A stretch of DNA of 64,000 nt from NCBI GenBank assembly GCA_009773645.1, contig WSYB01000005.1:1-64000 (forward strand). Reading direction: 5' to 3'. The notes under the pieces are model-generated. The model was not told where the DNA came from and did not search any database. It saw nothing but the letters and a program-made list of their open reading frames with translations. Of the stretch, positions 2,375 to 18,712 are shown in pieces; position 1 is the first letter of the stretch, and every line of letters starts with the position of its first letter. A program made the position numbers and the translations under genes. This DNA is from Geobacteraceae bacterium. GTDB lineage: Bacteria; Desulfobacterota; Desulfuromonadia; Geobacterales; Geobacteraceae.

Positions 2375-5300
2375 ATGGGAGCGATAATGGCAAAAAACAA
2401 CTCTAGGAGAGGGAGCGAGGGAAAGAATCGGCTAGCGCTCTTTATGACGGTGCTATTCGTTTTTACCGTGAGCGGATCGTTATTGCCAGGATTGACTCAC
2501 GCTCTGGTCACCCCTCTCATGCATGACAGCAACAATCTCGGTACCAGGTACGGCACGTGGGGGACCACCCAGGACTGCACATGGTGTCATTCTCCCAATA
2601 CATCCAACGTCAAGCAGGTTGCGGCAACAATAAACACCCCCACCGGTTCCCGGCCCGTCATCTTCACCCGGATGACCGCCTCATCCAATGCGACCAGCGG
2701 CATTTTCGGCAACGACGAGCGGACCTACGCGCTGAATGCGTCTACGAATGTGTGCGAAGTATGTCACCATAAGACAACATACCATCAGTACAGCTCGGGC
2801 AAGATTGCCGACAAGGCCCATACCGGCCATAACAGCAACCGGAAGGACTGCATCCAGTGCCATCTCCACGGCGCCGGTTTCAAGGCGGGGTGCAATAACT
2901 GCCACGGCTATCCGCCGACCTCCAATGCAGCCTATGGCGGGCCGGACGGCCTTGCCACGCCCGCCACCCTTGCACTCGGCGGCACCACCACAACACCGCC
3001 TGCCAACGTCGGCGCCCATGCCGTTCACGTGACCACTAAGGGGATGCTGTGCGCCTCATGCCACAACAATAATACCGCCTCCGGACACCCCGGTTCCGTC
3101 ATAGACATGGGCTTTGTCGCCAATGCCACCAACTGGCCCGGCTTTGCCGGGACTGCCGCTTACGGGTCCTATACCGGCAACAACAGCGCCGGCGCCAAGT
3201 CTGCGGCAAGCAGTCATGCCGGCACCATCGTCAGGAACATCGCCAGCACACGCAACTCCTGCAACGTTTACTGCCACGGCAACTGGACTGGGGCAAATCG
3301 TAGCCTCAACCCGTCGTGGATCGGTGGCGCCACGCAGGACGCCTGCGGCGCCTGTCACGGCACAACGGCGGCCCAAGGGCCGCAGACCGGCTCCCACGCC
3401 AAGCACGTCGCCTCTTCAGGTTACAGTTTAGCCTGTTCCTTCTGCCACCGGGCGTACACCGACAACGCGCACGTGGACGGAAATGTGGCGTGGAAACTGA
3501 ACCGCGGCGATGTGAAGGTGGGAACGAACGCCACCTATAAGAACCTCTCCAGCGGCAAGACCGGCGCCATTGCCCTAGGCGCCGCCTTCGGCGACTGCGC
3601 CAACGTCTATTGCCATTCCAACGGCCTGGCGACGCCAACCTACGTTACCAACCTGACCTGGGGCGCCGCTTCCGAAGGGGCATGCGGCACCTGCCACGGC
3701 GTTCTCGACGCAACACCACCCGCGTCCGCGGCCCATACGAAACACGTGGGAACGGTGGCCGGCTACATTTACTCCTGCATCAAATGTCACCCCAACGTAA
3801 GCTCCACGGTCAACTCAACAACGACGGCCACCATTACCAACACGGCCACCCATGTCAACAAGACTAATGATGTGACATTCGATGCATTCAACCCAGGTGC
3901 CGGTTCAACATGCTCGGCAACATATTGCCACAGTGAGGGAACCGGCGCGACGGGACAGTCTGGAGATGCCCGGCTCCAGGATCCTCCTGCCACTGCTCCG
4001 ACTTGGACCAGCACCGCCAGTTGCTCCATGTGTCATACAGGCGGCACGACAACAGGCCCCACTTATACGAGCGGCAAAGCCAACAGCCATGCTTTGCATA
4101 CGGCTGCCGGAATCGCTTATACATGCGACGTGTGCCACTATGCAACCACCACCAATGGTACGACGATCGATAAGCCTAAGAGGCACGTGAACAAGTTCTA
4201 CAACATTTCCGCCAATACCGCCAAAACAGGCGCATTCGCCTACACTTATGTCTCTACCGGCGGCACCTGCGCATCCACCAGGTGCCACGGCGCCCGCACC
4301 GTCACATGGGGCGCCAATACCACCAACGCTCAATGCACCAAGTGCCACGGTAAAACAATCGCCCAGGCAAACTACTCCACTGCAACCAACAAGCAGTCAG
4401 CTCCCGGCTATGGCGTGACCGGTGTCGACACGGCCAACCAATCGGGGACGGTGTCCGGCAACGTCTCCAACGACGCCCAGGTCGGCGCCCATGATGTGCA
4501 TCTGCGCGTACTCAACAAATATGCCAATCCAACTGCCTGCAGCAGTTGTCATACCGTTCCGGCAACAGTAACTGCCGCAGGCCACATGAACGGCACCCCG
4601 GCTGCTATCGCCTGGAGTTCCTTCGTAACGGAAGGTGGAACCCTCACGCCTAGCTATACCGCCGGCACGTGTACAAACACTTACTGCCACGGCGGCTCGA
4701 TGACTGACGGCTCGCCTGCTACCAAGGCAAATCCCACCTGGACGGGTGGCACGCTCCTCGCCGGGACAGGTGGGACAGACTGCGGCAAGTGTCATGGCAA
4801 CCCGCCCAACTCAGCCGGGCATTCAGGCGTAACCGCCAACCAGTGCAATTCCTGCCATTCACACGCTATTAACGGCGCCACGGCTGCCCCCTTCTTCAGC
4901 GACATCAGCAAGCACCTAAACGGCGTCCTGGACGGCGGCATCTCCAACGGTGGTCAGCTCTGCTACGGTTGCCACGGCACCTACCAGACCGCCATGGAAG
5001 ACGGCACCGGCACCAAGACCGGTGCAACCAGGACCAGCTTCTACCACCACGTCCTCGGCGGGACGGCAGGCGATGGTGAAATAGCTCCGAACGCCGGCAG
5101 CTACCAGACCAGCACCACGGATGTTTACTGTACGTCATGCCACGGCGACCACAACTACTTCAACGCCAACAAGGGGGCAAACCTTCGCTCCAACGCGACC
5201 GTCGCCACGGTAACCGCATCGAATACCGACTTCTCGGCGACTTCACCGAACGGCGTCTGCGTGTCGTGCCACACCAACAGCCTTACCAAGGACACCGCGA

Positions 5301-7321
5301 ACCAGAAGAGCGGCGGCGCGGCGACCACCCCGGCCATAAGCGGAGCCAATTACAACCTCTCCATGCACAATTACACCTCCACGTCGCTCTACGGCACATC
5401 CCGCTTCGACGCCAACTGCTCCAAGTGCCACTCCGACGAGCAGACCAAGGACAAGCAGACCTCCGCGAAAAAGTTCGGCACCCACTTCACTGCCCTGCGG
5501 AGCATCACCAACCCGCTGGGGATCACCACCCCGACTGACCCGTTGGGGGCCAACTTCTGCTATCGCTGCCACAGCAAGACCACCGACACCAACCCCGGTG
5601 GCGGGCCGGCCAAGGGGACGGCCGGCAGGGATTACCTCGGTTCCCAGGCGATGATTGCTTCGGCTGAGGACACCTTCGCTGCCATGCAGTTGGGATCTGC
5701 CAGCTTGCCGGGCGGACAGCCGACCACGAGCACCAATACCCTTCACTTCTTGCCCGGGACCGAATATACTCCGCCGGGGACCCTGCCGACAGCCCACCTG
5801 AGTACTGCCGACACATTTGCCGGCGGCACCTTCCGAGCCCGAGGGATGGCGCCGTACCCATCAACGACTGCCTACGAGAGTTGGGACACCACGGCGGTAT
5901 CGGTTACCGCTTCGACTCAGAACTGGCGGCGGGTCTCCTTCATCTCGCCGACCGTGGCCACCGCCTTCAGCACCGGGACCGGCACCTGGGCCATCAACAT
6001 CTACGACCGGGAGAGCAGTACTAACGCCAATGCTCGGGTACGTTATGCGATCTATACCATCAATTCTGCCGGGGCCCTCAAGTCGACCATCGTCGCCCGG
6101 GCCAATGGCGGCACCGAGATGGCGATCACCGCGGCACCCGGCGCCTTGCAGGCGATCACCACCGCCGCCGGGACGAACACATCGGTTGCAGTGGGCGACC
6201 GGGTCGTGGTGGACCTGGAGATCCAGACCCTCAGCGTTACCACCGCTGGCAGTTATTCCATGACCTTCTTTTACGGCAACGGCGCGGCGAGCAACGTGGT
6301 GATGCCGGTCAGCGCCACCTTTAACTATACCAGCCAAGCGACCCCGGCATCGGGACGCCACGACGTGGCGAGCTATAAGGGGCTCCACAAGTACAACGAG
6401 ACAAGGACCGACATCGCCGCCGCCAAGCACGTGGAGTGCTCCGACTGCCATGAGCCGCACCAGGCCAAGCAGGGGCTTCACACCAAGGGGAGCGGGACCC
6501 TGGCTGGCGTCCTCACCGGCGCCACCGGCGTGACCGTCACCACCTGGGGCGCCAACTGGGCCGGGGTGACCACCTGGACACAGGGGACTACCGCTGCCCT
6601 GCCGGCCGCAACAGCCGAATGGCAGATATGCTTCAAGTGCCACTCCGCGGCCAATGCCAACTATGCCACCTGGGGTGGGGCCGGCGCCAATGCTTGGACC
6701 GACCTGGCCCTGGAGTTCAACCCGAACAACGAGTCTTACCATCCGGTCATCCAGGCTCTGCCCTCCACGGGCAACAGGAGGCTTGCCTCTACGGCCCTCA
6801 CCGGCGGGTGGACGCCGGGGCTGGTGATGAACTGCTCCGACTGCCACGGCTCCGACTCGGCGGGGGGCTCCAGGGGTCCGCACGGCGCATCGGTCAAATG
6901 GATGCTCAACCCCAATACGACGGCCACCAAGTACTACAACTGGCCTTACACAACGGCGGCCGGTAACGGTGGGAGCACCGGCACCCTCATCACAGGCACC
7001 GGCACCACTACGGTTCCCGGCACTAACTTCTGCTTCAGCTGCCACGTCTGGAGCGGCGGCGGCACAGCGCACACCGGACGATCAGATCACGCCGTCGCCT
7101 GTGTCGGCTGCCACATTCGGGTGCCCCACGGCGGCAAGGCCCTGCGTCTCCTTACGGGCACGAACGCCCCGGCCCGTTACAAGCCGAACGGCAACGGCGG
7201 CGGCACCTTCTACATGAACGGCGGCAGCAGGCCGGCTTCCGGTACCATGGGCGAGAGCAACTGTCAAACGGCAAGCGGCTGCACCCAGCATACCGCCACC
7301 GGCACCCTGCTCGGATGGTAA
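2375..7321 (+). CDS. Giant 30-haem-motif c-type cytochrome
   Basis: A 1648-residue exported cytochrome. The start is chosen by the GAGGTGAGGT ribosome site just upstream; an in-frame ATG at 2387 is an alternative. A basic N-terminus and hydrophobic segment (about residues 20-40) end in a plausible signal peptidase site after THA (residue 43). I count 30 haem motifs: 25 CX2CH, 4 CX4CH (CANVYCH, CSATYCH, CASTRCH, CTNTYCH) and one CX3CH (CNVYCH, codons at 3260-3277). Residues about 1105-1325 have no haem motif and read as a beta-rich domain; haem motifs resume after it. The C-terminal block (CSDCHGSD, CFSCH, CVGCH, then IRVPHG) is shared with the cytochrome at 26378. By family it should carry electrons in the periplasm or on the outer surface; the partner is unknown. 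A strong terminator follows, then ResB/CcsA genes. Confidence 0.95.
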   Translation: MGAIMAKNNSRRGSEGKNRLALFMTVLFVFTVSGSLLPGLTHALVTPLMHDSNNLGTRYGTWGTTQDCTWCHSPNTSNVKQVAATINTPTGSRPVIFTRMTASSNATSGIFGNDERTYALNASTNVCEVCHHKTTYHQYSSGKIADKAHTGHNSNRKDCIQCHLHGAGFKAGCNNCHGYPPTSNAAYGGPDGLATPATLALGGTTTTPPANVGAHAVHVTTKGMLCASCHNNNTASGHPGSVIDMGFVANATNWPGFAGTAAYGSYTGNNSAGAKSAASSHAGTIVRNIASTRNSCNVYCHGNWTGANRSLNPSWIGGATQDACGACHGTTAAQGPQTGSHAKHVASSGYSLACSFCHRAYTDNAHVDGNVAWKLNRGDVKVGTNATYKNLSSGKTGAIALGAAFGDCANVYCHSNGLATPTYVTNLTWGAASEGACGTCHGVLDATPPASAAHTKHVGTVAGYIYSCIKCHPNVSSTVNSTTTATITNTATHVNKTNDVTFDAFNPGAGSTCSATYCHSEGTGATGQSGDARLQDPPATAPTWTSTASCSMCHTGGTTTGPTYTSGKANSHALHTAAGIAYTCDVCHYATTTNGTTIDKPKRHVNKFYNISANTAKTGAFAYTYVSTGGTCASTRCHGARTVTWGANTTNAQCTKCHGKTIAQANYSTATNKQSAPGYGVTGVDTANQSGTVSGNVSNDAQVGAHDVHLRVLNKYANPTACSSCHTVPATVTAAGHMNGTPAAIAWSSFVTEGGTLTPSYTAGTCTNTYCHGGSMTDGSPATKANPTWTGGTLLAGTGGTDCGKCHGNPPNSAGHSGVTANQCNSCHSHAINGATAAPFFSDISKHLNGVLDGGISNGGQLCYGCHGTYQTAMEDGTGTKTGATRTSFYHHVLGGTAGDGEIAPNAGSYQTSTTDVYCTSCHGDHNYFNANKGANLRSNATVATVTASNTDFSATSPNGVCVSCHTNSLTKDTANQKSGGAATTPAISGANYNLSMHNYTSTSLYGTSRFDANCSKCHSDEQTKDKQTSAKKFGTHFTALRSITNPLGITTPTDPLGANFCYRCHSKTTDTNPGGGPAKGTAGRDYLGSQAMIASAEDTFAAMQLGSASLPGGQPTTSTNTLHFLPGTEYTPPGTLPTAHLSTADTFAGGTFRARGMAPYPSTTAYESWDTTAVSVTASTQNWRRVSFISPTVATAFSTGTGTWAINIYDRESSTNANARVRYAIYTINSAGALKSTIVARANGGTEMAITAAPGALQAITTAAGTNTSVAVGDRVVVDLEIQTLSVTTAGSYSMTFFYGNGAASNVVMPVSATFNYTSQATPASGRHDVASYKGLHKYNETRTDIAAAKHVECSDCHEPHQAKQGLHTKGSGTLAGVLTGATGVTVTTWGANWAGVTTWTQGTTAALPAATAEWQICFKCHSAANANYATWGGAGANAWTDLALEFNPNNESYHPVIQALPSTGNRRLASTALTGGWTPGLVMNCSDCHGSDSAGGSRGPHGASVKWMLNPNTTATKYYNWPYTTAAGNGGSTGTLITGTGTTTVPGTNFCFSCHVWSGGGTAHTGRSDHAVACVGCHIRVPHGGKALRLLTGTNAPARYKPNGNGGGTFYMNGGSRPASGTMGESNCQTASGCTQHTATGTLLGW

Positions 7322-7342: not shown

Positions 7343-7376
7343 AAAAAAGCCAAGGGTTCGCCCTTGGCTTTTTTTT
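7343..7376 (+). terminator. Rho-independent terminator after 30-haem cytochrome
   Basis: An 8-bp GC-rich stem (gccaaggg/cccttggc) with a TTCG tetraloop is extended by A/T pairs and followed by eight T's. It sits 22 bases past the cytochrome stop. Confidence 0.92.
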
Positions 7377-7496: not shown

Positions 7497-8798
7497 ATGA
7501 AGCATTTTTTCCTGTCGCGAAAAACCGTACTCACTCTCCTTACACTCATTTTCATCACCGTAGTTTTATCCTATGTCATTCCCCAGAGAATTTCCGTAAC
7601 ACAGTTAACTCTGAATAAGTGGCGGGACGGTCATGCCCCATTGCTTTCGGCGGTGGACCTGCTGGGCCTGCATACCATCTTTACCTCCCCCTGGTTTGCG
7701 GCCATTCTTGGCCTGTTCCTTATCTCAATAATAACATCGTGCGTTCAACAGTTCGCCATTGCCAGGCAAAAGACCTTTCCGCATGCTTTCGCAGAAGCCG
7801 GCAACTGGCTACCCGTTCGGTGCGACCGGACGGCGGCGGGTGATACCCTTAAAAAACTGGGATATGTGCAGATTAGCCATAAAGACGGGATAACCGGGTT
7901 TATCAGGCATCCCTGGGGATACTGGGGAAATTTTTTGCTGCACCTCGGGATTGTCGTTGTGATCGCTTCTTCCCTCGTCATCCTGCTGACCCAGCAGCGT
8001 GGTTTGTTACATATGACCAAAGGCGAGATAATCGATCCCGGCACTTCCTGGGACTCCGAGGAACACGGACTTTTCACGGAGAGGCTCGTTCTTCCGTCGG
8101 CAATAACCCTCGTCAACTCCATAGCCCGGTTTTGGGAAACCGACGACATCAGACAGATTGAATCGTCCCTGGAATTTATCAAGCCCGATCAGTCCAGGGA
8201 TAGGGTCAACCTGAGCATCAACAGGCCTGCCTGGTACCATGGCATGAAAATCTACCAGAGTCATCAGGCAGGGCGCAGTTTTTACCTTGAATTTTCGGAT
8301 GGCAACGTGGGAACCATGGGGCACATCCTCCTGTTTCAACTGCCGCCCAGCCGTGATAAGGCCTCTTATAACGAGTTTCAGCTCAGCGGGATGCCGTTCC
8401 GGATTAAGGGAAAGTATTTTACCGATGCCGGAAAGAAGAGTATGGTGAGCAACGATCCCCTTTTGGTGCTGAGGTTGTACGATAAGGACTCGCTGCTCGG
8501 GGAGCTGCCGCTGCGGATCGGTGAGAGCGGGCCGCTGGGAAAGTACCGGGTAAGCCTGGTAAGGTCCGGTCAATGGGCTGGAATAAATTTTCTGGTAATT
8601 ACCGGCATGCCCGGCATATTTTTGGGCTTTCTTATCATTATCGGCGGCGGTTTATTGCATTATTTCGCTATACCCCGTGAGCTGATAATGAAACAGGACG
8701 GTTCGATGGTGAATATACAGTGGCGGGCGGCCAGGTTTGCGGAATTCTATGGCGATGAATACGAAGACCTGCTGACGAAATTTAACAGGGAGCAGTAG
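7497..8798 (+). CDS. ResB/CcsB-like cytochrome c biogenesis protein (module 1)
   Basis: A 433-residue membrane protein of the ResB/Ccs1 family, the partner of CcsA in system II cytochrome c maturation. System II delivers reduced haem to apocytochrome on the outer face of the membrane. Hydrophobic segments are visible near residues 10-30, 60-80, 140-162 and 365-390, with a large periplasmic domain between the last two. A His lies in the third segment (NFLLHLGIVVV), where the family has a conserved membrane His. It is paralogous to the product of 12502-13812, sharing the block DPLLVLR(L/I) and the C-terminal PRE motif. The ribosome site is weak. CcsA follows 103 bases downstream and a lipoprotein overlaps CcsA, giving a three-gene module directly behind a giant cytochrome. 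Confidence 0.9.
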   Translation: MKHFFLSRKTVLTLLTLIFITVVLSYVIPQRISVTQLTLNKWRDGHAPLLSAVDLLGLHTIFTSPWFAAILGLFLISIITSCVQQFAIARQKTFPHAFAEAGNWLPVRCDRTAAGDTLKKLGYVQISHKDGITGFIRHPWGYWGNFLLHLGIVVVIASSLVILLTQQRGLLHMTKGEIIDPGTSWDSEEHGLFTERLVLPSAITLVNSIARFWETDDIRQIESSLEFIKPDQSRDRVNLSINRPAWYHGMKIYQSHQAGRSFYLEFSDGNVGTMGHILLFQLPPSRDKASYNEFQLSGMPFRIKGKYFTDAGKKSMVSNDPLLVLRLYDKDSLLGELPLRIGESGPLGKYRVSLVRSGQWAGINFLVITGMPGIFLGFLIIIGGGLLHYFAIPRELIMKQDGSMVNIQWRAARFAEFYGDEYEDLLTKFNREQ

Positions 8799-8901
8799 CG
8801 CGAGATCGAATGGCAGCAGAGTGGTGCGCTGCTCCGTAAATATTTTCTCACGTGTTTTTGTGCCTCCAGCGAAAAATATAGGGAAGAAGGGAACATGAGA
8901 C

Positions 8902-9729
8902 ATGTATGACCCACTCATCATAGATACCGCCATCCACTGGGGAGCTGTTATCCTCTATGTCGTTGCCACAATCGCCAACGTCTGGGGGGTGATCTTCAGG
9001 AACGAGAAAACGGAGCGCAACAGCTACCGCATTGCCCTGGCAGGCCTTTGTGTCCACAGTGCCGCTCTCCTCTACCGCTGGAAGCTGGCCGGGCACGGCC
9101 CTTACATGGCGCATCGGGAAGTGCTCTCCTCCGATGCGTGGGTCATGTTGGTTTTGTTCCTCGTTTTTATGAAATTTTATCCCAGGGTTAAGCCGGCAAG
9201 CATAATAGTTTTCCCTGCCACATTCATGCTGATCGCCCTCGGGCTCTTTTTTAATCCCGCAGTCAAAAAGATCCCGCCAACCCTTCGCAGTATCTGGCTG
9301 GTGCTGCACGTTTCGTTCTACAAGATAGCGCTCGGCACTATTCTGGTCGCACTGGCATTCTCCATTTTTTATATTCTTAAGAACAGGAAATCTTTTGACT
9401 GGCTTGCCCGTTTGCCGGATAAGGAGATCCTTGATCTGTATGCTTTCAGGTTTGCCGGCTTCGGCTTCGTATTCTGGGCGATCGCCATGCTGGCCGGTTC
9501 CATCTGGGCCTACCAGTCGTGGGGCCGTTTTTGGGCATGGGACCCGGTTGAAACCTGGTCTCTGATCACCTGGCTTGCCTTCGGCATCTATCTGCATCTG
9601 CGCCGATTCTTCGGTTGGAAGGGGGAGCGGGCTGCATACTTCTACATTATCTGTTTCGCTCTTTCGATAATCGCCGTGTTTTTTACCTCGGTAATGGAAT
9701 CGTCCATTCATTCGGAGTATTTCAAATGA
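8902..9729 (+). CDS. CcsA/ResC-like haem exporter/lyase subunit (module 1)
   Basis: A 275-residue polytopic membrane protein (about 8 segments) of the CcsA/CcmC/CcmF haem-handling family. The tryptophan-rich WWD motif at residues 202-219 is canonical: WGRFWAWDPVETW. Family work on CcsBA assigns haem binding to this loop and to flanking His residues; here candidates are H65 (GHGPY), H136 and H270 (SSIHSEYF at the extreme C-terminus). The gene follows ResB by 103 bases and its stop overlaps the start of the downstream lipoprotein (ATGA), implying translational coupling. It pairs with the ResB at 7497 to form a system II synthetase. It closely resembles 13809-14636, which has a degraded WWD motif. 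Confidence 0.93.
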   Translation: MYDPLIIDTAIHWGAVILYVVATIANVWGVIFRNEKTERNSYRIALAGLCVHSAALLYRWKLAGHGPYMAHREVLSSDAWVMLVLFLVFMKFYPRVKPASIIVFPATFMLIALGLFFNPAVKKIPPTLRSIWLVLHVSFYKIALGTILVALAFSIFYILKNRKSFDWLARLPDKEILDLYAFRFAGFGFVFWAIAMLAGSIWAYQSWGRFWAWDPVETWSLITWLAFGIYLHLRRFFGWKGERAAYFYIICFALSIIAVFFTSVMESSIHSEYFK

Positions 9730-10253
9730 TAAGAAACCTCTGCTGCCTGCTGTTCATTATCACATGTGTTGCCGCCTGCAGCCGTGAAACCGGCGAGAGC
9801 CGGCAGGTCAAGGCCGTTATCATGCGGTACAACCAACTGCTCGTCGAAGGTTATAAAAAACTCAACATGAACCCCCTCCAGGAGGTTACTACCCCGGAGC
9901 AGGCCACCAAGTTGTACTACCACATGTCTGCCCTCGGTGAGGGTAAGCTGCGCATGGATTCGACAATGAAAAATATCGAGTTCCGCAAGCTTGAATTCCG
10001 CAATAACGGCGAAGCGGTGGCAGAAACTCGCGAAATTTGGGATTTCACCCATCTTGATATGAACAGCGGGAAGAAGTTTTATGAGGAGAAGGATTTCATT
10101 TATGAGATGGGTTATGAACTGAAAAAAGAGGGCGGAAGGTGGCTTATCACCCGAGTCACCGCCCTTTCGGGAAAGAGCACCAACACGACTGTTCCCTGGC
10201 CGGAAACAAAGCGGCATGGGGGTATGTCTTCGGTTGGCAATGGAAGAAAATGA
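9726..10253 (+). CDS. Lipoprotein associated with ResB/CcsA module 1
   Basis: A 175-residue predicted lipoprotein. The hydrophobic N-terminus ends in a VAAC lipobox (Cys at residue 18). The start is taken as the ATG overlapping the CcsA stop (ATGA); the frame is open further upstream but that lies inside CcsA. The core motif (V/I)MRYNQLL..GY..LNM.PLQEV and a C-terminal GGRWLIT segment are shared with the lipoprotein at 14636, so the pair are paralogues that travelled with their ResB/CcsA genes. The RWLIT ending suggests a small alpha+beta (NTF2/SnoaL-like) fold, but that is a guess. I do not know its function. Strict co-occurrence with CcsA suggests an envelope accessory in haem attachment or apocytochrome delivery. 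Confidence 0.85.
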   Translation: MIRNLCCLLFIITCVAACSRETGESRQVKAVIMRYNQLLVEGYKKLNMNPLQEVTTPEQATKLYYHMSALGEGKLRMDSTMKNIEFRKLEFRNNGEAVAETREIWDFTHLDMNSGKKFYEEKDFIYEMGYELKKEGGRWLITRVTALSGKSTNTTVPWPETKRHGGMSSVGNGRK

Positions 10254-11266
10254 AGAAGGTGATGGGAAAAAAGTCCGTTGTCCGGATATTTGTTCTGCTG
10301 GCGGTATTTTTACTGGGCGGCGTCAGCGGCTGGTTTATCGGCAGCGCCCCGGAACGAAATGAACCAGAGGAGTCCAAAGGCTATCTGATCCGCCAGGGGG
10401 GGTACCGCCTGATCAACCCGCTGCTCGAGTGCGAAATTGCCGAGGACACCATCAGGAGCAGGGAACTGAGCCCATTCAAGGCCAAAACTGAAAAATTGAT
10501 TGCGGCGGTAAAAAAGGACAAAAGGGCTACCAGCGTCTCCGTATATTTCCGGGACCTCAACAGCGGGGCCACGTTCAACATCAACGCCAACGAGGGCTAT
10601 TCCCCCGCCAGTCTCAGCAAGCTGCCGGTCCTGATCGCTTATCTGAGGATGGCGGAAAAAGAACCGCATATCCTGGGTAAAAAAATTGAATTCGAAGGCA
10701 ACGATGACTGGGGCGAGATGCAGAACATCAAGCCGGAAAAGGTTATCGAGAAGGGGAAGTCCTATGCCATCGAAGACCTCCTGTACAGAATGATGGCCTA
10801 TTCCGACAACAATGCCTGGGGTCTCCTGTTTAACCGGGTGGGAGTCGATTATCTGGACAAAATCCTGGCGGATCTGGGCGTTGATTACGACAAGGCAAAG
10901 GAAGAGGATTTCGTTACGGTCAAGTCGTATGCCAGATTCCTGCGCATCCTCTATAACGCCTCCTATCTGAGCAAGGAAATGTCGGAGAAGGCATTGCAGT
11001 ATCTTACCGTGGTCGATTTTACCAAGGGGCTGGTTGCCGGGGTGCCGAAAGATGTCATGGTGGCCAGCAAATTCGGCGAACGCACCTTGGGCCCAAACAG
11101 GGAGATTAAGCAGTTGCACGATTTCGGGATAATTTATTACCCGAACCGTCCCTACCTGCTGTGCTTGATGACAAGGGGTGATGATTTCGAGAAACTGGCC
11201 GGGGTGATTCGGGATGTTTCCCGGCTGGTGTATGAAGAGATTGACCGGCAGGTCAAATCACACTGA
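10250..11266 (+). CDS. Serine hydrolase of class A beta-lactamase fold, membrane-anchored
   Basis: A 338-residue protein starting at the ATG that overlaps the preceding stop. One hydrophobic segment (residues 10-31) anchors or exports it. The catalytic domain shows the penicillin-recognising signature: S121-x-x-K124 (SLSK) and S185-D186-N187 (SDN). The third box, normally K-T/S-G, reads KFGE at 274-277, so classical beta-lactam hydrolysis is doubtful. A peptidoglycan- or ester-directed hydrolase is equally possible. It sits at the end of the first ResB-CcsA-lipoprotein module with ATGA coupling, so it is probably co-expressed with it; why a cytochrome assembly module should carry it is unclear. 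Confidence 0.85.
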   Translation: MKKVMGKKSVVRIFVLLAVFLLGGVSGWFIGSAPERNEPEESKGYLIRQGGYRLINPLLECEIAEDTIRSRELSPFKAKTEKLIAAVKKDKRATSVSVYFRDLNSGATFNINANEGYSPASLSKLPVLIAYLRMAEKEPHILGKKIEFEGNDDWGEMQNIKPEKVIEKGKSYAIEDLLYRMMAYSDNNAWGLLFNRVGVDYLDKILADLGVDYDKAKEEDFVTVKSYARFLRILYNASYLSKEMSEKALQYLTVVDFTKGLVAGVPKDVMVASKFGERTLGPNREIKQLHDFGIIYYPNRPYLLCLMTRGDDFEKLAGVIRDVSRLVYEEIDRQVKSH

Positions 11267-11331
11267 CCGTTGCGATTTTGTCAACGAAATTGCGAAGGCG
11301 GCTATCTAATATGTTGCAGGAGACATCTCTA

Positions 11332-12213
11332 ATGCGAACTATGAAAGCGGTATTGATGTTTATTGCCGTCTTATCCGTGTTTCCCGGCGTCACCCTTGCG
11401 ACGAACGTCATACAGGCGGAGCTTGCCGGGGCGGACGCTCTGGACCGGGAAGTACTGCAATTATTCAGGACCGGCAAGTACCGGGAGGCGCTGGCCAAGG
11501 CGCAGAAGGCACTTGATGTCAGGGAAAAGGCGAAGGGGAAGGACGATCTGAAGCTGGCGGCCAGTCTGAACAACCTGGCGGAGATTTACCGGGTTATCGG
11601 CCTATACGCCGAAGCGGAGCCTCTGTACAAGAGGGCACTGGTCATCGACGAGAAAGTCCTGGGGAGGGGGCATCCCGATGTGGCAACGAACATGAATAAC
11701 CTGGGCATTCTGCATTACCTTACCAAGCGGTACTCGGAAGCGGAACCACTGTTCAAGCGAGCCTTGCAGATCAGGGAGAAGGCTTTCGGCAAGGAAAATC
11801 CGGCAGTGGCCTCCAGCCTCAATAACCTGGCGACACTGTATAAATCGACCGGGAAGACGGCAGAGGCCGAATCGCTCTACAAAAGGGCGACAGCCATGTG
11901 GGGAAAGACCTTAGGGGAAGAGCACCCGGACGTGGCAAATGCCTTGAACGGGCTGGCAACCCTTTATATGGATAACAAACGCTATGCCGAGGCAGAGCCC
12001 CTGTTCAAAAGGGGACTGGCGATACGGGAAAAAACCCTGGGGAAGAACCATCCCGACGTGGCGACAATCCTCATGAACCTGGCGATGCTTTGCAAGGCAA
12101 CCGGCCGGGATGCCGAAGCCCATACCTATTACACACGTGCAACAGCCCCCCAGTTCCCTTTCTCCGGGCGTGTCCCGCTGGCGCCGCCATCCTTGAATAC
12201 CTTGCCGCCCTGA
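11332..12213 (+). CDS. Exported TPR-repeat protein with a foreign C-terminal tail
   Basis: A 293-residue protein with a signal peptide (start at 11332, AGGAG site 9 bases upstream; the frame is open further left from a TTG). It contains about five 42-residue tetratricopeptide repeats of the kinesin-light-chain type, each with the pattern LNNLA.LY...G.Y.EAE.LY.RAL.I.EK.LG..HPDVA. These domains normally mediate protein-protein contacts. The last 22 or so residues (from APQFPFSGRV on) are not TPR: they are read from a duplicated fragment of the radical SAM gene at 22961, fused in frame at a C6 run. The native C-terminus may therefore have been lost. It lies between two cytochrome assembly modules. 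Confidence 0.85.
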   Translation: MRTMKAVLMFIAVLSVFPGVTLATNVIQAELAGADALDREVLQLFRTGKYREALAKAQKALDVREKAKGKDDLKLAASLNNLAEIYRVIGLYAEAEPLYKRALVIDEKVLGRGHPDVATNMNNLGILHYLTKRYSEAEPLFKRALQIREKAFGKENPAVASSLNNLATLYKSTGKTAEAESLYKRATAMWGKTLGEEHPDVANALNGLATLYMDNKRYAEAEPLFKRGLAIREKTLGKNHPDVATILMNLAMLCKATGRDAEAHTYYTRATAPQFPFSGRVPLAPPSLNTLPP

Positions 12214-12314
12214 CCCTGCGCGCCGACCCGTGCATCGAGGTCGAGCTGATTGACGCTAACCAGACCACTGTAGAGGCCGCTTCTCTGAACGCCGACCTGG
12301 TGGCGATCAGCGCC
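12146..12314 (+). pseudogene. 5' fragment of a B12-binding radical SAM gene (remnant)
   Basis: These 169 bases match 22980-23149, the start of the intact radical SAM gene, at roughly 90% identity with one deleted base (a C near 12190) that breaks the frame. The two pieces encode PQFPFSGRVPL, then after the shift ILEYLAALTLRAD and VELIDANQT, as in the intact protein. Nothing beyond the first 60 codons is present. It has been captured as the 3' end of the TPR gene and is followed by a terminator. Confidence 0.9.
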
Positions 12315-12390
12315 TTCAGCTGCAGCGGCGGCCAGCATACCGGGGGAACTCAAGCGTGGTAATGCGTTAACTCGTGCTTCTGAATTACTG

Positions 12391-12416
12391 CCGGGGGCTT
12401 CGTCCCCGGTTTTTTT
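12391..12416 (+). terminator. Rho-independent terminator
   Basis: A GC-rich stem (ccggggg/tccccgg, one G-T pair) with a CTTCG loop is followed by seven T's. It closes the transcript that starts with module 1 and separates it from the second ResB gene. Confidence 0.9.
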
Positions 12417-12501
12417 GCCACTGACAGGATTTATGATACATTTTCCATGAGTGTAAATGGAGAGAATATACGGCATATGCAGCCCGCGAGACAGGCATGA
12501 C

Positions 12502-13812
12502 ATGTGGTTGAAAAGGGTCGTAACCAGCAGAAAATTCATTACAGCGGTTTTTTTGCTCCTGATTTCGTCGCTCCTGCTCTCGAATTTCCTCCCGCGGCAC
12601 GGGAGCATGGCGAACGAGTTGCCCCTATGGTACGCCCAGTTCCCAAATCTCGCCAAACTGGTGACCCTGCTCGGCCTGAATGCGCTCCATACATCGGTCT
12701 GGTTTTCCATCGTCGGCTTGCTGTTTCTTGTCTCGCTCTCCTTTTCCACGTTCGACCAGGGAGAGCGGAGCTATCGCCTGATGAAGCAGTTTCCGGCCGA
12801 GATAGGCGGCGAGGAAGAGGCGCTTCGGGTCGAATTGCTCGAATTTACCGGGTATCTGAAACGTGAGGGGTATTTCTGTCTTGCGGACAATGGCATCATC
12901 AGCCGCCATGTGAGGGCACCGTGGGGGTACTGGGGCAATTTTGTCCTGCACCTGGGCCTTACCTGTGTCGTCCTGTTCGCGTTTGTGCGTGTGCTTACGG
13001 AGCACAGAACGCTCTTTCGGATCGTCGAAGGAGTCGTAGTTTCCCGTGAAGACGGGACAACCGGTGAAGTAGCCGGTCTGCTCGCAAGAAAGATGACCTA
13101 CCCGGCCACGGTGCGCCTGGAGCGGCTGACTCCCTTGTTCTGGGACAATGACCAGCTCAAGTCGGTCACGGCGGAAGTCGCACTCTATGACGATCTGGGC
13201 GGATTGGAAAAGGTCGGCCTGAATGCGTTCGATGGGACAAAAGTACACGGGCAGATGTTCTACCTGAGCCCGCATTTCGGGAACGCCTTTTTCCTGCAGT
13301 TCTATAGCGGGGATACCCCCCCGTTCACGTCGGTCCTTACGATCGGGAGACCGCCGCGCAGAGACAAGGCCGGCTACGGCGACCTTGATCTGCCCGGCGG
13401 GCGGCTTCACCTGAAGGCGAAGTATTACGCGGATGCCGACAGGCAGAGCATGTACACCGGGAATCCGCTTCTGGTGCTTCGTATCTTCGACGGGCCGAAT
13501 CTCCTGAATGAGATCCGGCTGCGCCGGGGAGAGAGCGGTAAACTCGGACCTTACCTGGTGCGGCTGGCAGAGGTGCGGGGGATGGGAGAGCTTCTCTCGG
13601 TTGGGGGGGTCGGCGTTGCTGGTATCTACGGCGGCTTTGCCATTATTTTCCTCGGCTCGGTACTGGTCTATTGCGCCACGCCGAGGGAAGTCGTGTTGCG
13701 GCGGTCTGCCTCCGGGATAATGGTCAGCTGGCGGTCGGTAAGGTTCCGCGACCTGTACCGTACCGAACGGGAACGAGTCATGGAATTCTGCAGGGGAGAG
13801 AAGAAGTCATGA
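12502..13812 (+). CDS. ResB/CcsB-like cytochrome c biogenesis protein (module 2)
   Basis: A 436-residue paralogue of the ResB at 7497. The start at 12502 (MWLKRVV) is chosen because it aligns with that protein's N-terminus; an in-frame ATG at 12457 would add 15 residues, and neither has a strong ribosome site. Membrane segments fall near residues 10-31, 60-80, 145-165 and 375-400. The membrane His (NFVLHLGL) and the block NPLLVLRIFD are retained. The periplasmic domain has diverged more than the membrane parts, which would fit a change of client. It overlaps the next CcsA gene (ATGA) and so forms a second system II synthetase with it. Confidence 0.9.
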   Translation: MWLKRVVTSRKFITAVFLLLISSLLLSNFLPRHGSMANELPLWYAQFPNLAKLVTLLGLNALHTSVWFSIVGLLFLVSLSFSTFDQGERSYRLMKQFPAEIGGEEEALRVELLEFTGYLKREGYFCLADNGIISRHVRAPWGYWGNFVLHLGLTCVVLFAFVRVLTEHRTLFRIVEGVVVSREDGTTGEVAGLLARKMTYPATVRLERLTPLFWDNDQLKSVTAEVALYDDLGGLEKVGLNAFDGTKVHGQMFYLSPHFGNAFFLQFYSGDTPPFTSVLTIGRPPRRDKAGYGDLDLPGGRLHLKAKYYADADRQSMYTGNPLLVLRIFDGPNLLNEIRLRRGESGKLGPYLVRLAEVRGMGELLSVGGVGVAGIYGGFAIIFLGSVLVYCATPREVVLRRSASGIMVSWRSVRFRDLYRTERERVMEFCRGEKKS

Positions 13813-14636
13813 ACGGACAGTTTGCCCTGGTAACCGGTCTCCACTGGGGAGCGGTGGCCTGTTACGTGGTTGCGACGTTGTGCGCCGTGACAGGGGTCAT
13901 CTTCAAGAGCGAGAAGTCTGAGCGGTACGGGCTGATTATCGCAATTCCGGGACTCCTCCTGCATGGAATTGCGCTTCTGATCTGGTGGCGCATTGTCGGC
14001 CATGGGCCGTACATGGACCGTTTCGAGGTCCTCTCATCCAACGCCTGGGTAATGCTTGCTCTCTTTCTTCCGGCGATCCGCTTCTATCCACGGTTGCGGT
14101 CCGCCGCCGTGGTGGTCTTCCCGGCCACCTTCTTTCTCGTGGCCCTCGGTCTTTTTCTCCGGCCGGAGATCAAGAACCTGCCAGCAAGCTATCGCGGGTA
14201 CTGGCTGATCCTCCATATCGTTTTCTACAAGATTTCCTTTGCGGCCACTCTGATTGCGGTAACTTTTTCCATCTTTTATCTGCTTGCTACGGGCAAGAGC
14301 CCCAGGCGTCTTTCATTCCTTCCCGAGCCCGATGTCATGGACCTGTATGCCTACCGTTTCGCCAGCTTCGGTTTCATCTTCTGGGTGATCGGCATGCTGG
14401 CCGGTTCCATCTGGGCCTATCAGTCGCTGAACATGTTCTGGAGCTGGGAGCCGGTGCAGATCTGGTCCCTCGTGACCTGGGTGCTTTTCGGCCTCTACCT
14501 GCACATGCGGCGGTTCTACGGCTGGGCGGGGCGGAAGGCTGCCTGGCTCTATATTCTCTGTTTCGCCCTTGCGGTTTTCTCGCTGTTTGTAACCCCTTTC
14601 ATCAACTCGTCAATCCATTCGGAGTATTTCAAGTGA
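13809..14636 (+). CDS. CcsA/ResC-like protein with degenerate WWD motif (module 2)
   Basis: A 275-residue paralogue of the CcsA at 8902, aligning without gaps over nearly its whole length. His residues at 65, 136 and 270 are retained, including the C-terminal SSIHSEYFK. The haem-binding WWD loop is altered at normally invariant positions: where module 1 has WGRFWAWDPVETW, this copy has LNMFWSWEPVQIW, that is W207L, G208N, D214E and E217Q (read from codons at 14427-14465). The rest of the protein looks under selection, so this is not an obvious pseudogene. It may handle a different haem or apocytochrome context, or act as a regulatory partner. ATGA overlap with ResB upstream and near overlap with the lipoprotein downstream. 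Confidence 0.9.
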   Translation: MNGQFALVTGLHWGAVACYVVATLCAVTGVIFKSEKSERYGLIIAIPGLLLHGIALLIWWRIVGHGPYMDRFEVLSSNAWVMLALFLPAIRFYPRLRSAAVVVFPATFFLVALGLFLRPEIKNLPASYRGYWLILHIVFYKISFAATLIAVTFSIFYLLATGKSPRRLSFLPEPDVMDLYAYRFASFGFIFWVIGMLAGSIWAYQSLNMFWSWEPVQIWSLVTWVLFGLYLHMRRFYGWAGRKAAWLYILCFALAVFSLFVTPFINSSIHSEYFK

Positions 14637-15223
14637 TGACACCGATCCGCGTTCTGACATTGACTGCCCTCACGTTCTCTCTGCTGTTCACGGGGTGCAG
14701 TGAAAAATTTTCCACCCAGCAGGAAAAGGAGCAGCAGAAATCGACCCCGGCGACTGCCGACGGCTCCATTTCCCAGCAAACGGCCCACGCCGTGGTAATG
14801 CGTTATAACCAGCTCCTGGCCGACGGCTACCGCAACCTGAACATGACCCCGCTTCAGGAGGTGGCAACGGAGGATCTGGCGCGAAAGGCCTACCACCACA
14901 TGGCGGCAATCAGCGAGGGGAAGAAGCGGATGGATTCCAAACTGAAGAAGTTTGAATTCGTCAAGACCGAGTTTCCGCAGCCGGGGAGATGCCGGATCCA
15001 GACGCGGGAGTTGTGGGATTACAACTACAGTGACATCGAAACCGGCAAAATAAGCACAGAGGTGAAGGATTACATCTATCACGTCAACTATACCCTGGAG
15101 AACAGGGGAGGGCGGTGGCTCATCACATCCATCGTTGCCAATGGCGAAGAATCGGGGGGGAAGTCCGTCCCCTCCTGGGACAAGATGTTCGAGGGCGGGA
15201 AAACCACGCCGCAGAAAAAGTGA
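14636..15223 (+). CDS. Lipoprotein associated with ResB/CcsA module 2
   Basis: A 195-residue predicted lipoprotein whose ATG overlaps the CcsA stop (TGATG); a GTG one codon earlier is also possible. The signal sequence ends in the lipobox FTGC (Cys at residue 21). After a polar linker rich in Gln and Glu comes the conserved core VVMRYNQLLADGYRNLNM and the C-terminal GGRWLITSI, both shared with the module 1 lipoprotein. The core differs mostly by conservative changes, while the linker is longer. No known domain is recognised. Its position and paralogy argue that ResB, CcsA and this lipoprotein act as one unit. Confidence 0.85.
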   Translation: MTPIRVLTLTALTFSLLFTGCSEKFSTQQEKEQQKSTPATADGSISQQTAHAVVMRYNQLLADGYRNLNMTPLQEVATEDLARKAYHHMAAISEGKKRMDSKLKKFEFVKTEFPQPGRCRIQTRELWDYNYSDIETGKISTEVKDYIYHVNYTLENRGGRWLITSIVANGEESGGKSVPSWDKMFEGGKTTPQKK

Positions 15224-15235
15224 TTGAAGAAGCAG

Positions 15236-16021
15236 ATGCCCAAGATAACTTCCCGTAGCCTGATAGCCGTTTCTGTGGCCATAGTTGTTGCGGCCATCCT
15301 GGTGGTCGTCCTGCTCGACCGCTATGGCCGGAATGCGCGAACCTACGGCGCGGTCGGCGCCATCGACAGCCCGCAGGTCGTCAGGATGGTCGTGGAGTCT
15401 CCGCTCGATGCCTATGCCTTCTGGAAGCAGCAAGGTTTCAAGGGGAGGACCATCCTGCTGATTGCCGATGCCTGGGAGCGCCTGGGGATCGTCAACCAGG
15501 CCGATATTCCCTCGGCGCGTCCCTATCCGCTCCGTCTGTACCACATACCGACCACTTTCGAACGGGAGAAGCTGTCCCCGGCCAACTTCCTCTACGTTGC
15601 CGCCCTGAACGGAATCACGCGGAGAGTCGTTGCCATCCTTTCGCAGCCCGGATACGACGATATGGCAGCGATGGCACAGAGGGCGACAGAGGCGAGGATC
15701 GGCGCAGGGGAGTTATATCTTCCGCATCAGGGATTTCCGCGCTGGTTTACGACGCTCGCCCGCTTCAGGGGGGAGAAGGAGCCGGTGCTCCTGTATGTCA
15801 ACGCCTCTTATTTCAGAACCGTGGAACCCGAAGATCTGTACCGGCAGCTGAAGGCCTCAGGGGTTGCGACCGATGCGGTCATACTCTGCCGGGGGGGAGA
15901 GGACAACCGCCTCACGAATCTTGAGCGCGCTAAACTTGAAAGGTTTGCCCGCCTGATCGGCATTCCCGCGGCCAAGAACGATTCGCCCGCTGCAGCTCCT
16001 GCCGCCAGGCCCCGGCAATGA
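15236..16021 (+). CDS. Single-pass membrane protein of unknown function
   Basis: About 261 residues if started at the ATG at 15236; a TTG at 15224, directly behind the previous stop, would add four. One membrane segment lies at about residues 8-28, and the rest (about 230 residues) is predicted to be outside the cytoplasm. The soluble part has alternating hydrophobic strands (RTILLIADAW, PVLLYVNASYF, TDAVILCRGG) that suggest an alpha/beta fold, and a Pro/Ala-rich tail. I do not recognise a family. It overlaps the following GT39 glycosyltransferase by four bases (ATGA), so it is probably co-translated with it and may be part of the same envelope glycan pathway. Confidence 0.75.
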   Translation: MPKITSRSLIAVSVAIVVAAILVVVLLDRYGRNARTYGAVGAIDSPQVVRMVVESPLDAYAFWKQQGFKGRTILLIADAWERLGIVNQADIPSARPYPLRLYHIPTTFEREKLSPANFLYVAALNGITRRVVAILSQPGYDDMAAMAQRATEARIGAGELYLPHQGFPRWFTTLARFRGEKEPVLLYVNASYFRTVEPEDLYRQLKASGVATDAVILCRGGEDNRLTNLERAKLERFARLIGIPAAKNDSPAAAPAARPRQ

Positions 16022-17310
16022 GCGGGGCATCCGTTCCCATGATGACCGGCATTCCCTGCCAACGCTTTCATATCCATCTGGGCTTCATCACCCTGCTGGG
16101 ATTCTTCCTGCGCACCTTGCTCCTCCCCTCCCAGCCTGTGACGTGGGACGACTATTCCGTCGGACTCACGGCTATCAACTACATGGAGTCGGGTCAGCTC
16201 GGCCCGATCATGTGGAATCATCCCGAACTGGGGAATATCCTGGTCTACTCCGCTCTGCGACTATTCGGCACCGGCCTGGTGGGGCTGAAGGGGATGAGCG
16301 TCATCGTAGGCGTCCTCTCGATAACCCTGGTCGGGCTGGTATCCCGGCAGCTTTTGCGCAACGAGACCATGGCGCTCCTGGCAGCTCTCCTCTGGGCCCT
16401 GGACCCGCTGGCCATCGACATGTCGCGTCAGGCGGTACATGAGATCTACATGGCGTTTTTCCCCCTTGCAGGCATCTATTGCATTTCACGATACAGGATG
16501 GGCCGGAACCACTGGTGGCTTCTCGCTGCAGGGGCCGGTTTCGGTCTCGGGCTGGCGTCGAAATGGAGCGTTGCCTTCCCGCTCGTCGTCTCTCTTGCGT
16601 TTCTGATCAACGACTTCCGGCGTAAGGGTGCCTCCGGCGTTCCCGTCCCGGCCAGGATGCTGTTTGCGGCAGTTTCCCTCATGGTACTGCCGGCTGTAAT
16701 CTATATCTTGACCTTCATCCCCTGGTTCGGCCAGGGACATTCGGTTGGCGAGTGGCTGGAACTGCACAAGGACATGTATGTGGAAACCAAGCTGCATGTC
16801 GGTTATGAAGAGCTTTCCAGGAGGGATCATCGGGCCTATGAATGGTTTATCCGGCCCGTCTCGTGGCGCGACAGCACTTTCAATAACGACACCGGCGAGC
16901 CCATGGTGGAGGCCGAATCCGGGAAGTACTTTATCGATCTGATCGGAGTAGGGAATCCGTTCGTCTGGTTTCTGGTGATCCCGGCCGTCCTCTACCTGGT
17001 GCGTAAGTGCGTGCAACGGCGGGACGAAGGGCTCATGTACGCGGCGGCACTCTTTCTCGCCTCCTACCTGCCCCTGGCTTTCACCTACAGCCGGCCGATC
17101 TTTGTGAACGCGGCGCTGTCGGTCATGCCGTTCGCCATGATGGCGGTGGCGCATCTTGTCGTCTCCACCCTCTGCACGACCAGGGCGCGGAAGAGGATTT
17201 TCGCCCTCTACCTCGCCCTGGTCGTGTTCGCGACAGTCCCGCTCTACTTTCTTGCCATCGGCAAGGGAGCCGAATTCCCGTTTCTGAGAGACTATTTCCT
17301 GCAGAACTGA
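16018..17310 (+). CDS. GT39/ArnT-like membrane glycosyltransferase (copy 1)
   Basis: A 430-residue polytopic membrane protein. It resembles the PMT/ArnT superfamily (GT-C fold), which moves sugars from polyprenyl phosphate to proteins or lipids on the outer side of the membrane. The acidic pair D44-D45 in the first outer loop (TWDDYSVGLTAINY) is where the family has its catalytic or metal-binding Asp. It is followed by an R..F.G...GLKG segment and many hydrophobic stretches (around 25-38, 90-130, 155-185, 215-235, 310-400). The start at 16018 overlaps the upstream gene; ATG 16039 is an alternative. The neighbouring gene is a paralogue. Substrate and acceptor cannot be deduced. Confidence 0.85.
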   Translation: MSGASVPMMTGIPCQRFHIHLGFITLLGFFLRTLLLPSQPVTWDDYSVGLTAINYMESGQLGPIMWNHPELGNILVYSALRLFGTGLVGLKGMSVIVGVLSITLVGLVSRQLLRNETMALLAALLWALDPLAIDMSRQAVHEIYMAFFPLAGIYCISRYRMGRNHWWLLAAGAGFGLGLASKWSVAFPLVVSLAFLINDFRRKGASGVPVPARMLFAAVSLMVLPAVIYILTFIPWFGQGHSVGEWLELHKDMYVETKLHVGYEELSRRDHRAYEWFIRPVSWRDSTFNNDTGEPMVEAESGKYFIDLIGVGNPFVWFLVIPAVLYLVRKCVQRRDEGLMYAAALFLASYLPLAFTYSRPIFVNAALSVMPFAMMAVAHLVVSTLCTTRARKRIFALYLALVVFATVPLYFLAIGKGAEFPFLRDYFLQN

Positions 17311-17317: not shown

Positions 17318-18712
17318 ATGACATCACCCGCCGGCATGGACAACATTAAGAACCCCGACACCATCGGGCCGGACCGTGCCACGGCCAAAACCGGTCCGCG
17401 CAGGTATTTCCTGCCAATGCTTCTCCTGTTGACGCTCCTCGGACTCTTTTCCCGCCAGTACCTCCTGCACTCCCAACCGGTTTCGGTGGACGATTTCTCG
17501 GTGGGGCTCACGGCCATAAACTACGTGGAGTCGGGACAACTGGGGCCGACCATGTGGAACCATTCCAACCTGTGCGGGATACTGGTCTACGGCGCCATGC
17601 GGCTTTTCGGCACCGGGGTCGTTGGACTGAAGGGGGTGAGCCTCATGTTCGGCCTCTTCTCCATCCCGCTGCTCGGCCTTGTGGCCCGGAGGTTCATGTC
17701 GGAGAGTGCTGCCCTCCTTGCCTCTTTCCTCTGGACTGTCGAACCCCTTGCAATCGACTTTTCCCGCCAGGCCATCGGTGACATCTACCTAGCTTTTTTC
17801 CCGCTGCTCGGGATCTATTTTGCCTGCCGGTACCGGGAGAGCCGGCGCCAATACTGGCTGCTTGCCGCCGGGGTGAGTTTCGGCTGCGGATTGTCCACCA
17901 AGTGGAGCGTCATTTTCCCCTTGGCAGTTACCCTGGTGCTGGTTGCCCGCTCTATCCGGAAGGGACGAGAGGAGAGTGGGGCGTGTCGGGCAATCAGCAT
18001 GGTCCACTGCTTTGCCGCGCTGGTCTTGCTTCCCCTGATCATTTACCTGCTCACCTTCATCCCCTGGTTTGGCCGCGGATACGATGCCAGCGAGTGGCCT
18101 GCCCTGCAGCAGGCCATGTACCGGGAGACCTCCCAACATACCGGCTATCACCCCCTGGAGCAGGACTACCGGGATCATTGGGCCTACGAGTGGTTTGTCC
18201 GCCCCATAACCTACGAGGATGTCTATGCCAATCGGGACGGCAACGGTCAGGAAGGGCTGGACGGAAGCGACGGCCGGATGACCGTCCTCCTGGCGGTCGC
18301 CAATCCGCTGGTCTGGCTGGCGGTGCTGCCGTCGCTGCTGTTTGCCGCATGGCAGGGTATTCGCAAGCGCGACGAGGGGCTCTGCTATCTGGCGGGACTT
18401 TTCCTCTGTTCTTACCTGCCGCTGGCGCTGGCGCAACGTCCCATCTGGGCGAACACGGCCCTGTCCGTACTCCCCTTCGCCTTTATGGCAGTGGCTTATT
18501 CCATAACCGCCATTGCCGGGAATCCCGTGACAAGGCAACGGATCATCGCCGCCTATGTGGTGGCGGTTGCACTGACCACTGCGCCGCTCTACCCTCTCGT
18601 GATAGGGAAGGGTTTTGAGTTGCCGTACCTGAAGGATTACCTGGAGCAGAACTATGCGGACAAGCTCCAGCGGATGAGGGATGGGGGAGCTTTCCCATCC
18701 GGCGGCAGATGA
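17318..18712 (+). CDS. GT39/ArnT-like membrane glycosyltransferase (copy 2)
   Basis: A 464-residue paralogue of the preceding gene, 7 bases downstream of its stop. The diagnostic loop is nearly identical (SVDDFSVGLTAINYVESGQL), with the acidic pair at D58-D59. The stretches FGTGVVGLKG, LTFIPWFG and the ending IGKGFELPYLKDYLEQN also match copy 1 (there IGKGAEFPFLRDYFLQN). It has an extra cytoplasmic N-terminus of about 15 residues and a short C-terminal tail. Such tandem pairs may add successive sugars or act on different acceptors. Co-transcription with copy 1 is likely from the spacing. Confidence 0.87.
   Translation: MTSPAGMDNIKNPDTIGPDRATAKTGPRRYFLPMLLLLTLLGLFSRQYLLHSQPVSVDDFSVGLTAINYVESGQLGPTMWNHSNLCGILVYGAMRLFGTGVVGLKGVSLMFGLFSIPLLGLVARRFMSESAALLASFLWTVEPLAIDFSRQAIGDIYLAFFPLLGIYFACRYRESRRQYWLLAAGVSFGCGLSTKWSVIFPLAVTLVLVARSIRKGREESGACRAISMVHCFAALVLLPLIIYLLTFIPWFGRGYDASEWPALQQAMYRETSQHTGYHPLEQDYRDHWAYEWFVRPITYEDVYANRDGNGQEGLDGSDGRMTVLLAVANPLVWLAVLPSLLFAAWQGIRKRDEGLCYLAGLFLCSYLPLALAQRPIWANTALSVLPFAFMAVAYSITAIAGNPVTRQRIIAAYVVAVALTTAPLYPLVIGKGFELPYLKDYLEQNYADKLQRMRDGGAFPSGGR

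Follow-up and report, generated by a model that had tools for sequence, protein, structure and literature searches.

A 64,000-nucleotide stretch of the genome of a Geobacteraceae bacterium (GenBank assembly GCA_009773645.1; 4.74 Mb, 78 contigs), comprising positions 1 to 64,000 of contig WSYB01000005.1 and here called the window, encodes two modules in which genes for the System II cytochrome c biogenesis proteins ResB and CcsA are joined by a gene for a small lipoprotein. We propose that these lipoproteins, Lp1 and Lp2, add an NTF2-like third component to specialised ResB-CcsA modules reserved for very large multihaem cytochromes, and that they would serve there as tethered, non-catalytic assembly factors. 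We give this reading about an even chance of being correct. A tethered assembly factor is proposed because the neighbours of Lp are haem lyase genes, a cytochrome is its constant companion and its predicted fold is that of membrane adaptors.

Both modules (module 1, 7497-10253; module 2, 12457-15223) belong to System II, as the ResB and CcsA domains exceed their Pfam cut-offs in each (Table 1). A preliminary description of this DNA had given the order ResB-CcsA-lipoprotein for both modules, which is right, and its coordinates for the two lipoprotein genes are exact. It had also reported stop/start overlaps throughout. These occur at CcsA1/Lp1 (ATGA), ResB2/CcsA2 (ATGA) and CcsA2/Lp2 (TGATG), so that both lipoprotein genes are translationally coupled to ccsA, whereas ResB1 and CcsA1 are separated by a gap of 103 nucleotides. 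The stop of Lp2 abuts the start of the next gene (TGA/TTG). Terminator-like hairpins flank both ResB-CcsA-Lp units, and each thus looks like its own transcription unit. CcsA1 and CcsA2 score 150.6 and 123.9 bits against the canonical CcsB equivalog TIGR03144, under its curated cut-off of 187.6, and therefore represent a divergent subfamily. The WWD haem motif was found in both, in altered form in CcsA2. The genome, whose cytochromes give it a Geobacter-like appearance, has only two copies of Lp, despite several further ResB/CcsA loci.

Table 1. Features of the window in and around the two ResB-CcsA-lipoprotein modules.
Feature	Coordinates	Strand	Details
Giant multihaem cytochrome, upstream of module 1, candidate client	2375-7321	+	1648 aa, 25 CXXCH + 4 CX4CH; MtrC/MtrF-like II/IV and GSu_C4xC domains
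Terminator-like hairpin, gap between upstream cytochrome and ResB1	7343-7374	+	14-pair stem
ResB1	7497-8798	+	433 aa; PF05140 77.5 bits (cut-off 24.6)
CcsA1	8902-9729	+	275 aa; PF01578 135 bits (cut-off 29.9); haem motif WGRFWAWDPVETW
Lp1, NTF2-like lipoprotein (predicted), third gene of module 1	9726-10253	+	175 aa; open reading frame, lipobox VAAC, ATGA overlap with ccsA1
Class-A beta-lactamase/transpeptidase-like serine hydrolase, downstream of Lp1	10250-11266	+	PF13354 132.7 bits; ATGA overlap with Lp1 stop
Terminator-like hairpin, gap between module 1 unit and ResB2	12390-12416	+	9-pair stem, T-run
ResB2	12457-13812	+	451 aa; PF05140 36.6 bits (cut-off 24.6)
CcsA2	13809-14636	+	275 aa; PF01578 102.7 bits (cut-off 29.9); altered haem motif LNMFWSWEPVQIW
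Lp2, paralogous NTF2-like lipoprotein (predicted), third gene of module 2	14636-15223	+	195 aa; open reading frame, lipobox FTGC, TGATG overlap with ccsA2
p9, conserved protein, partner of Lp2-type genes	15224-16021	+	265 aa, TTG start, N-terminal hydrophobic segment
Two tandem PMT-family glycosyltransferases, end of module 2 unit	16018-17310, 17318-18712	+	PF02366 66.5, 65.3 bits
Terminator-like hairpin, 3' of last glycosyltransferase	18831		

Lp1 and Lp2 are paralogues, as had been noticed, with 52% identity over 128 aligned residues (E = 2e-47), including the MRYNQLL...LNM.PLQEV core and the GGRWLIT motif. Both have a type II signal peptide and a lipobox, and the lipobox cysteine (Cys18) is invariant across an alignment of 28 members, as in bacterial lipoproteins. 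The signal sequence places the proteins, by prediction, in the periplasm and tethered to a membrane. No Pfam or NCBIfam profile matches Lp1 or Lp2 above its cut-off, and the family is nameless in both databases. The ARC6-like intermembrane-space (IMS) domain (PF13355, gathering cut-off 22.8) is not reached by Lp1 (12.5 bits) or Lp2 (17.4 bits, E = 0.0065), and is the most frequent weak Pfam match in the family (17 of 25 members), followed by YvbJ NTF2, MlaC and Tim44. Sequence-profile comparison with solved structures returned only MlaC-type matches, which are weak (E 0.08 or worse). An AlphaFold2 model built from 28 sequences (predicted local distance difference test, pLDDT, 88.6) is an NTF2-like domain, with a long curved four-stranded sheet on which three helices are packed. 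Foldseek matched the model to 57 PDB chains at E <= 1e-3, led by the IMS domains of ARC6 and PARC6 (E 4.5e-7) and then Tim44. Structural alignment (VIA-align) gave Z 17.2 at 2.6 Å over 127 residues for ARC6 IMS and Z 13.0 at 3.1 Å over 130 residues for Tim44.

Residue conservation bears on two other possible functions. Invariance in the wide Lp alignment is limited to the lipobox cysteine, Y35, E103, W105 and Y130; the members of the close family all share H66, M67, E72 and others as well. Lp might instead bind haem, in the manner of CcmE but on an NTF2 fold, and carry or accept it in the periplasm on its way from ResB-CcsA to the apocytochrome. The H66-M67 pair and several tyrosines that are invariant in the close family would suit such a protein, and the cone of an NTF2-like fold is often a ligand-binding site. 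H66 and M67 are lost in more distant members, however, and System II lyases deliver haem themselves (PMC10663686), so we regard a haem carrier as improbable. System II usually includes thiol-redox proteins as well (PMC12285233), and Lp could be a partner of this kind, like ResA or CcsX, reducing the cysteines of CXXCH motifs. The sequences rule this out, leaving it with next to no probability: the only conserved cysteine of the family is the lipidated one, mature Lp1 has no cysteine at all, CxxC is absent, and the fold is NTF2-like, not that of thioredoxin.

The distribution of Lp was established from mechanically called open reading frames (ORFs). ResB or CcsA was counted as linked within 8 kb, and a cytochrome as linked when an ORF with at least five CXXCH motifs lay on the same strand within 9 kb; the linkage probabilities ignore phylogeny. 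Among 141 genomes from the order, 34 yielded homologues to a search with the single Lp1 sequence; a profile search detected 57 homologues in 45 of the 141. ResB and/or CcsA lies within range of 51 of the 57, on the same strand every time. Of the six homologues without ccs genes, three (L049, L050, L080) lie where a contig breaks off. The genuine exceptions are L059, which has a cytochrome with 42 haem motifs and no ccs genes, L167, which has cytochromes and an ORF resembling the ResB C-terminus and lacks CcsA, and L072/L144 (G088:C221), the sole homologue that lacks both ccs genes and a multihaem cytochrome within ~9 kb. The genome of this last locus also has two Lp-less modules on other contigs. 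The twelve most distant homologues were detected by the profile only and collected regardless of their neighbourhood, and thus provide an unbiased check of the linkage: in 11 of the 12 the cluster includes a complete ResB and/or CcsA, and nearly all have a multihaem cytochrome alongside. Distant members (L167-L178) lack a lipobox, have an N-terminal hydrophobic segment in its place and keep the ccs linkage; lipidation is therefore not essential to the association. In these loci the NTF2-like gene is followed by a gene whose product of ~300-365 aa weakly matches the C-terminal region of ResB and may be a split or second ResB. A rhodanese-like protein is also encoded upstream in L167 and L177.

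A scan of named genomes identified 30 Lp loci. The named relatives that carry them are mostly Geobacteraceae, and ten of the loci are outside the order (Nitrospirota/Thermodesulfovibrionia, Desulfobulbaceae and other Deltaproteobacteria). ResB-CcsA is nearby in nine of these ten, in eight at <= 0.5 kb on the same strand and in L159 at 7.5 kb; L149 has a cytochrome only and no ccs gene. A profile search of 395 genomes across the phylum added only two loci outside the order: L186, with ResB-CcsA 2.4 kb away on the opposite strand and a 9-haem cytochrome, and L187, with an 8-haem cytochrome and no ccs gene. These results indicate that the family is rare and confined to such clusters. The preliminary description had raised the question of whether lipoproteins of this type always accompany CcsA. 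They mostly do, within the order, among the distant homologues and beyond the order, with the exceptions given above; nor did we find the homologues to lie mostly elsewhere, or a known unrelated function for them.

Lp occupies several slots, most commonly after CcsA, otherwise before ResB, between ResB and CcsA, or in the arrangement Lp-p9-glycosyltransferase-ResB-CcsA (p9 is the conserved protein encoded after Lp2). Linkage thus survives rearrangement, through at least four gene orders, which argues for shared function. Could Lp nevertheless be a passenger of unrelated function that spread horizontally with these clusters? The clusters are patchy (45 of 141 genomes) and spread across phyla, as such a history would predict. 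We consider this very improbable, given that Lp is retained through several gene orders and deep divergence and is nearly absent elsewhere, with one orphan (L072) among 57 homologues.

Searching for relatives of CcsA1 delineated a distinct CcsA clade with 45 copies in 34 genomes; 28 of these copies have Lp within 8 kb. In 17 of the 45 modules no Lp was found; in three of these (G106, G107, G108) the contig stops at the module or the fragment on the Lp side lies on a different contig, which leaves 14 true absences. A profile search of those loci recovered no diverged Lp. A strict rule that every ResB-CcsA pair of the clade has an Lp is thus rejected. Lp is also missing from the remaining ResB/CcsA loci of the window's genome, canonical ones included. 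Together with the 14 absences, this makes Lp an accessory rather than a fixed part of the module. Lp presence follows the CcsA tree (71 sequences), with 7 changes compared with 18.4 in shuffled data (0 of 500 shuffles as low). Eleven of the 14 true absences fall in one supported, derived CcsA subclade that includes the third copy of the window's genome (contig C10), and a single loss therefore explains most of them. In this subclade the slot after CcsA is often occupied by a gene for a B12-binding radical SAM protein of ~500 aa (L123, L125); a gene of the same size occupies it in L126, L128, L129 and L131. Distances between Lp proteins correlate with those between the associated CcsA proteins (r = 0.88 for 43 modules and 0.62 for 29 close modules; 0 of 2000 permutations), and Lp and CcsA have thus diverged together.

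The Lp-linked cytochromes constitute at least 15 sequence groups, and a tie between Lp and a single cytochrome family is rejected. This diversity, set against the shared divergence of Lp, CcsA and ResB, favours a partner on the lyase side over one on the cytochrome side. The largest linked cytochromes have up to 45 haem motifs. Median cytochrome length is 1527 aa beside Lp and 1040 aa beside Lp-less modules (p = 3e-4, uncorrected for phylogeny and confounded by the single Lp-less subclade), as one might expect of a protein that helps with long chains.

Several observations weigh against the proposal that Lp is a lyase component. The 14 clade modules that lack Lp presumably work without it, and the correlation of Lp and CcsA distances may also reflect inheritance of the genes as a block. 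A multihaem ORF is linked to 50 of the 57 Lp homologues, so linkage alone cannot separate an accessory of the haem lyase from a partner of the cytochrome. The suggestion that Lp is an undescribed System II accessory thus gains from the ccs linkage and loses from the Lp-less modules and from a cytochrome linkage that is nearly as tight. At L059, L149 and L187 a cytochrome is present with no ccs gene nearby. Finally, the residue at position +2 of the lipobox is mostly not aspartate among Lp proteins. Under the E. coli +2 rule, if it holds in these bacteria, lipoproteins without this aspartate would go to the outer membrane, away from ResB-CcsA.

The frequent linkage to a cytochrome, the three loci with a cytochrome and no ccs gene, the +2 residues and the greater length of Lp-linked cytochromes are features expected under the main alternative: that Lp is an outer-membrane lipoprotein that serves the mature giant cytochrome in anchoring, surface export or conduit assembly, and is in the ccs cluster only via the cytochrome. 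We judge this alternative unlikely, though it merits serious consideration. Lp is translationally coupled to ccsA, whereas a terminator-like hairpin parts module 1 from the cytochrome gene; the diversity of the cytochromes contrasts with the co-divergence of Lp, CcsA and ResB; and the linkage is kept by distant members that have no lipobox.

The motif content of the cytochromes suggests one further function, as the module could attach haem specifically to CX4CH, a non-canonical motif that is common in these proteins. Genome co-occurrence is strong: cytochromes with PF09698 are encoded in 34 of 34 close-Lp genomes and in 90 of 141 overall (hypergeometric p = 1e-8, uncorrected for phylogeny). 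Yet CX4CH is absent from many of the Lp-linked cytochromes (13 CXXCH and 0 CX4CH; in Nitrospirota, 37 and 0), and CX4CH cytochromes also occur beside Lp-less modules. We thus reject a CX4CH-specific lyase, to which we would attach only a slight probability. Giant cytochromes with exactly 13 CXXCH and 0 CX4CH motifs recur (1280-1880 aa where complete; L055, L056, L058, L061, L070, L074-L076, L079-L081), and that of L081 has IPT/TIG and choice-of-anchor Z repeats. The window encodes a third cytochrome (24 CXXCH + 4 CX4CH) at 26342-32144 with a short ResB (319 aa) and a CcsA, without Lp; this ResB/CcsA pair belongs to another clade than modules 1 and 2.

How an assembly factor of this kind might work can be sketched from the known roles of its neighbours and of its fold. 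ResB-CcsA would bring haem through the inner membrane and then attach it. The NTF2-like domains of ARC6 and Tim44 act at membranes on protein partners. By analogy, the domain in Lp might bind either the periplasmic portion of ResB or stretches of the long, unfolded cytochrome that has received only some of its haems. It could keep the chain presentable or steady ResB during haem attachment, and perhaps pass the chain on. Contact of Lp with ResB-CcsA or the cytochrome, and action as a chaperone, are hypothetical. A more specific version of the proposal, held more tentatively, is that the third component of System II is a membrane-tethered NTF2-like apocytochrome chaperone, a counterpart of CcmI and NrfG, that enables a dedicated ResB-CcsA pair to equip a single giant cytochrome with dozens of haems. 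Lp probably helps metal-breathing bacteria to assemble their largest electron-conducting proteins.

Other genes accompany the two modules. The serine hydrolase gene downstream of Lp1 has counterparts next to Lp1-type modules at two further loci, L069 (62% identity) and L121. The p9 gene is present beside every Lp2-type locus with a complete flank, with one exception. The p9 protein has no Pfam match, and its predicted fold (pLDDT 80.7) has an arginase-like alpha/beta core (8brp, Z 14.8, 3.6 Å, 174 residues) in which the DxHxD metal motif is not visible. In the p9-associated CcsA clade of module 2, WDPVQTW replaces WDP(V/I/T)ETW (window 13809-14636; L042-L045, L048, L074-L079, L081). In CcsA2 of the window and two relatives the WWD motif reads SLNMFWSWEPVQIW, with WG and the aspartate gone. 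The changed motif of this clade may be a sign of altered haem handling. Glycosyltransferases close module 2, and genes of similar size (430-470 aa) come after p9 in relatives, which suggests glycosylation of a surface cytochrome.

Geobacter-type bacteria make single proteins with tens of haems, and loading so many onto an extended, unfolded polypeptide without aggregation or mis-ligation is a problem that calls for explanation. As a small, conserved NTF2-like protein that accompanies dedicated lyases, Lp offers a concrete gene and protein target for this problem, and it could lead to better recombinant production of giant cytochromes and of cytochrome nanowires.

Among known systems, the closest likeness in fold is to the IMS domain of ARC6 and PARC6 (Z 15-17, 2.4-2.9 Å, 125-128 residues), which has 13-14% identity to Lp and differs in its plastid division context. 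The C-terminal domain of Tim44 is likewise an NTF2-like domain at a membrane beside a translocating unfolded chain; it has ~9% identity to Lp and functions in mitochondrial import. In the open-access literature we found nothing that links the ARC6 IMS domain, NTF2 and a lipoprotein, and no NTF2-like third component of System II or NTF2-like lipoprotein in cytochrome c biogenesis. CcmI, NrfG and SirG are tetratricopeptide repeat (TPR) proteins of System I. They are extra lyase-linked factors that hold the apocytochrome, the role proposed here for Lp, whereas Lp is an NTF2-like lipoprotein that occurs with System II and has no Pfam match to a TPR domain. Sets of a dedicated lyase and an apocytochrome chaperone exist in System I, as in SirEF with SirG/CcmI (PMC6976685). 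A 2025 review presents System II as consisting of cytochrome c synthases and thiol oxidoreductases (PMC12285233). Wolinella, with NrfI, CcsA1 and CcsA2, resembles the bacteria studied here in having several System II lyases per cell, each for certain cytochromes (PMC10663686). The Wolinella lyases differ in that they are single fused CcsBA chains for the unusual motifs CXXCK and CX15CH, and their partners as described are thiol oxidoreductases (PMC12285233), with no NTF2-like lipoprotein. In Geobacter, ResB/ResC(CcsA) pairs were reported in 2009 to lie, and to be co-transcribed, with multihaem cytochromes and were proposed to serve these neighbours (PMC2700814). They are like the present modules in having ResB-CcsA beside multihaem cytochrome genes and differ in that the main text of that paper mentions no lipoprotein third component. 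Dedicated ResB/ResC pairs have thus been proposed before, and what is new here is the proposed addition of an NTF2-like component to System II.

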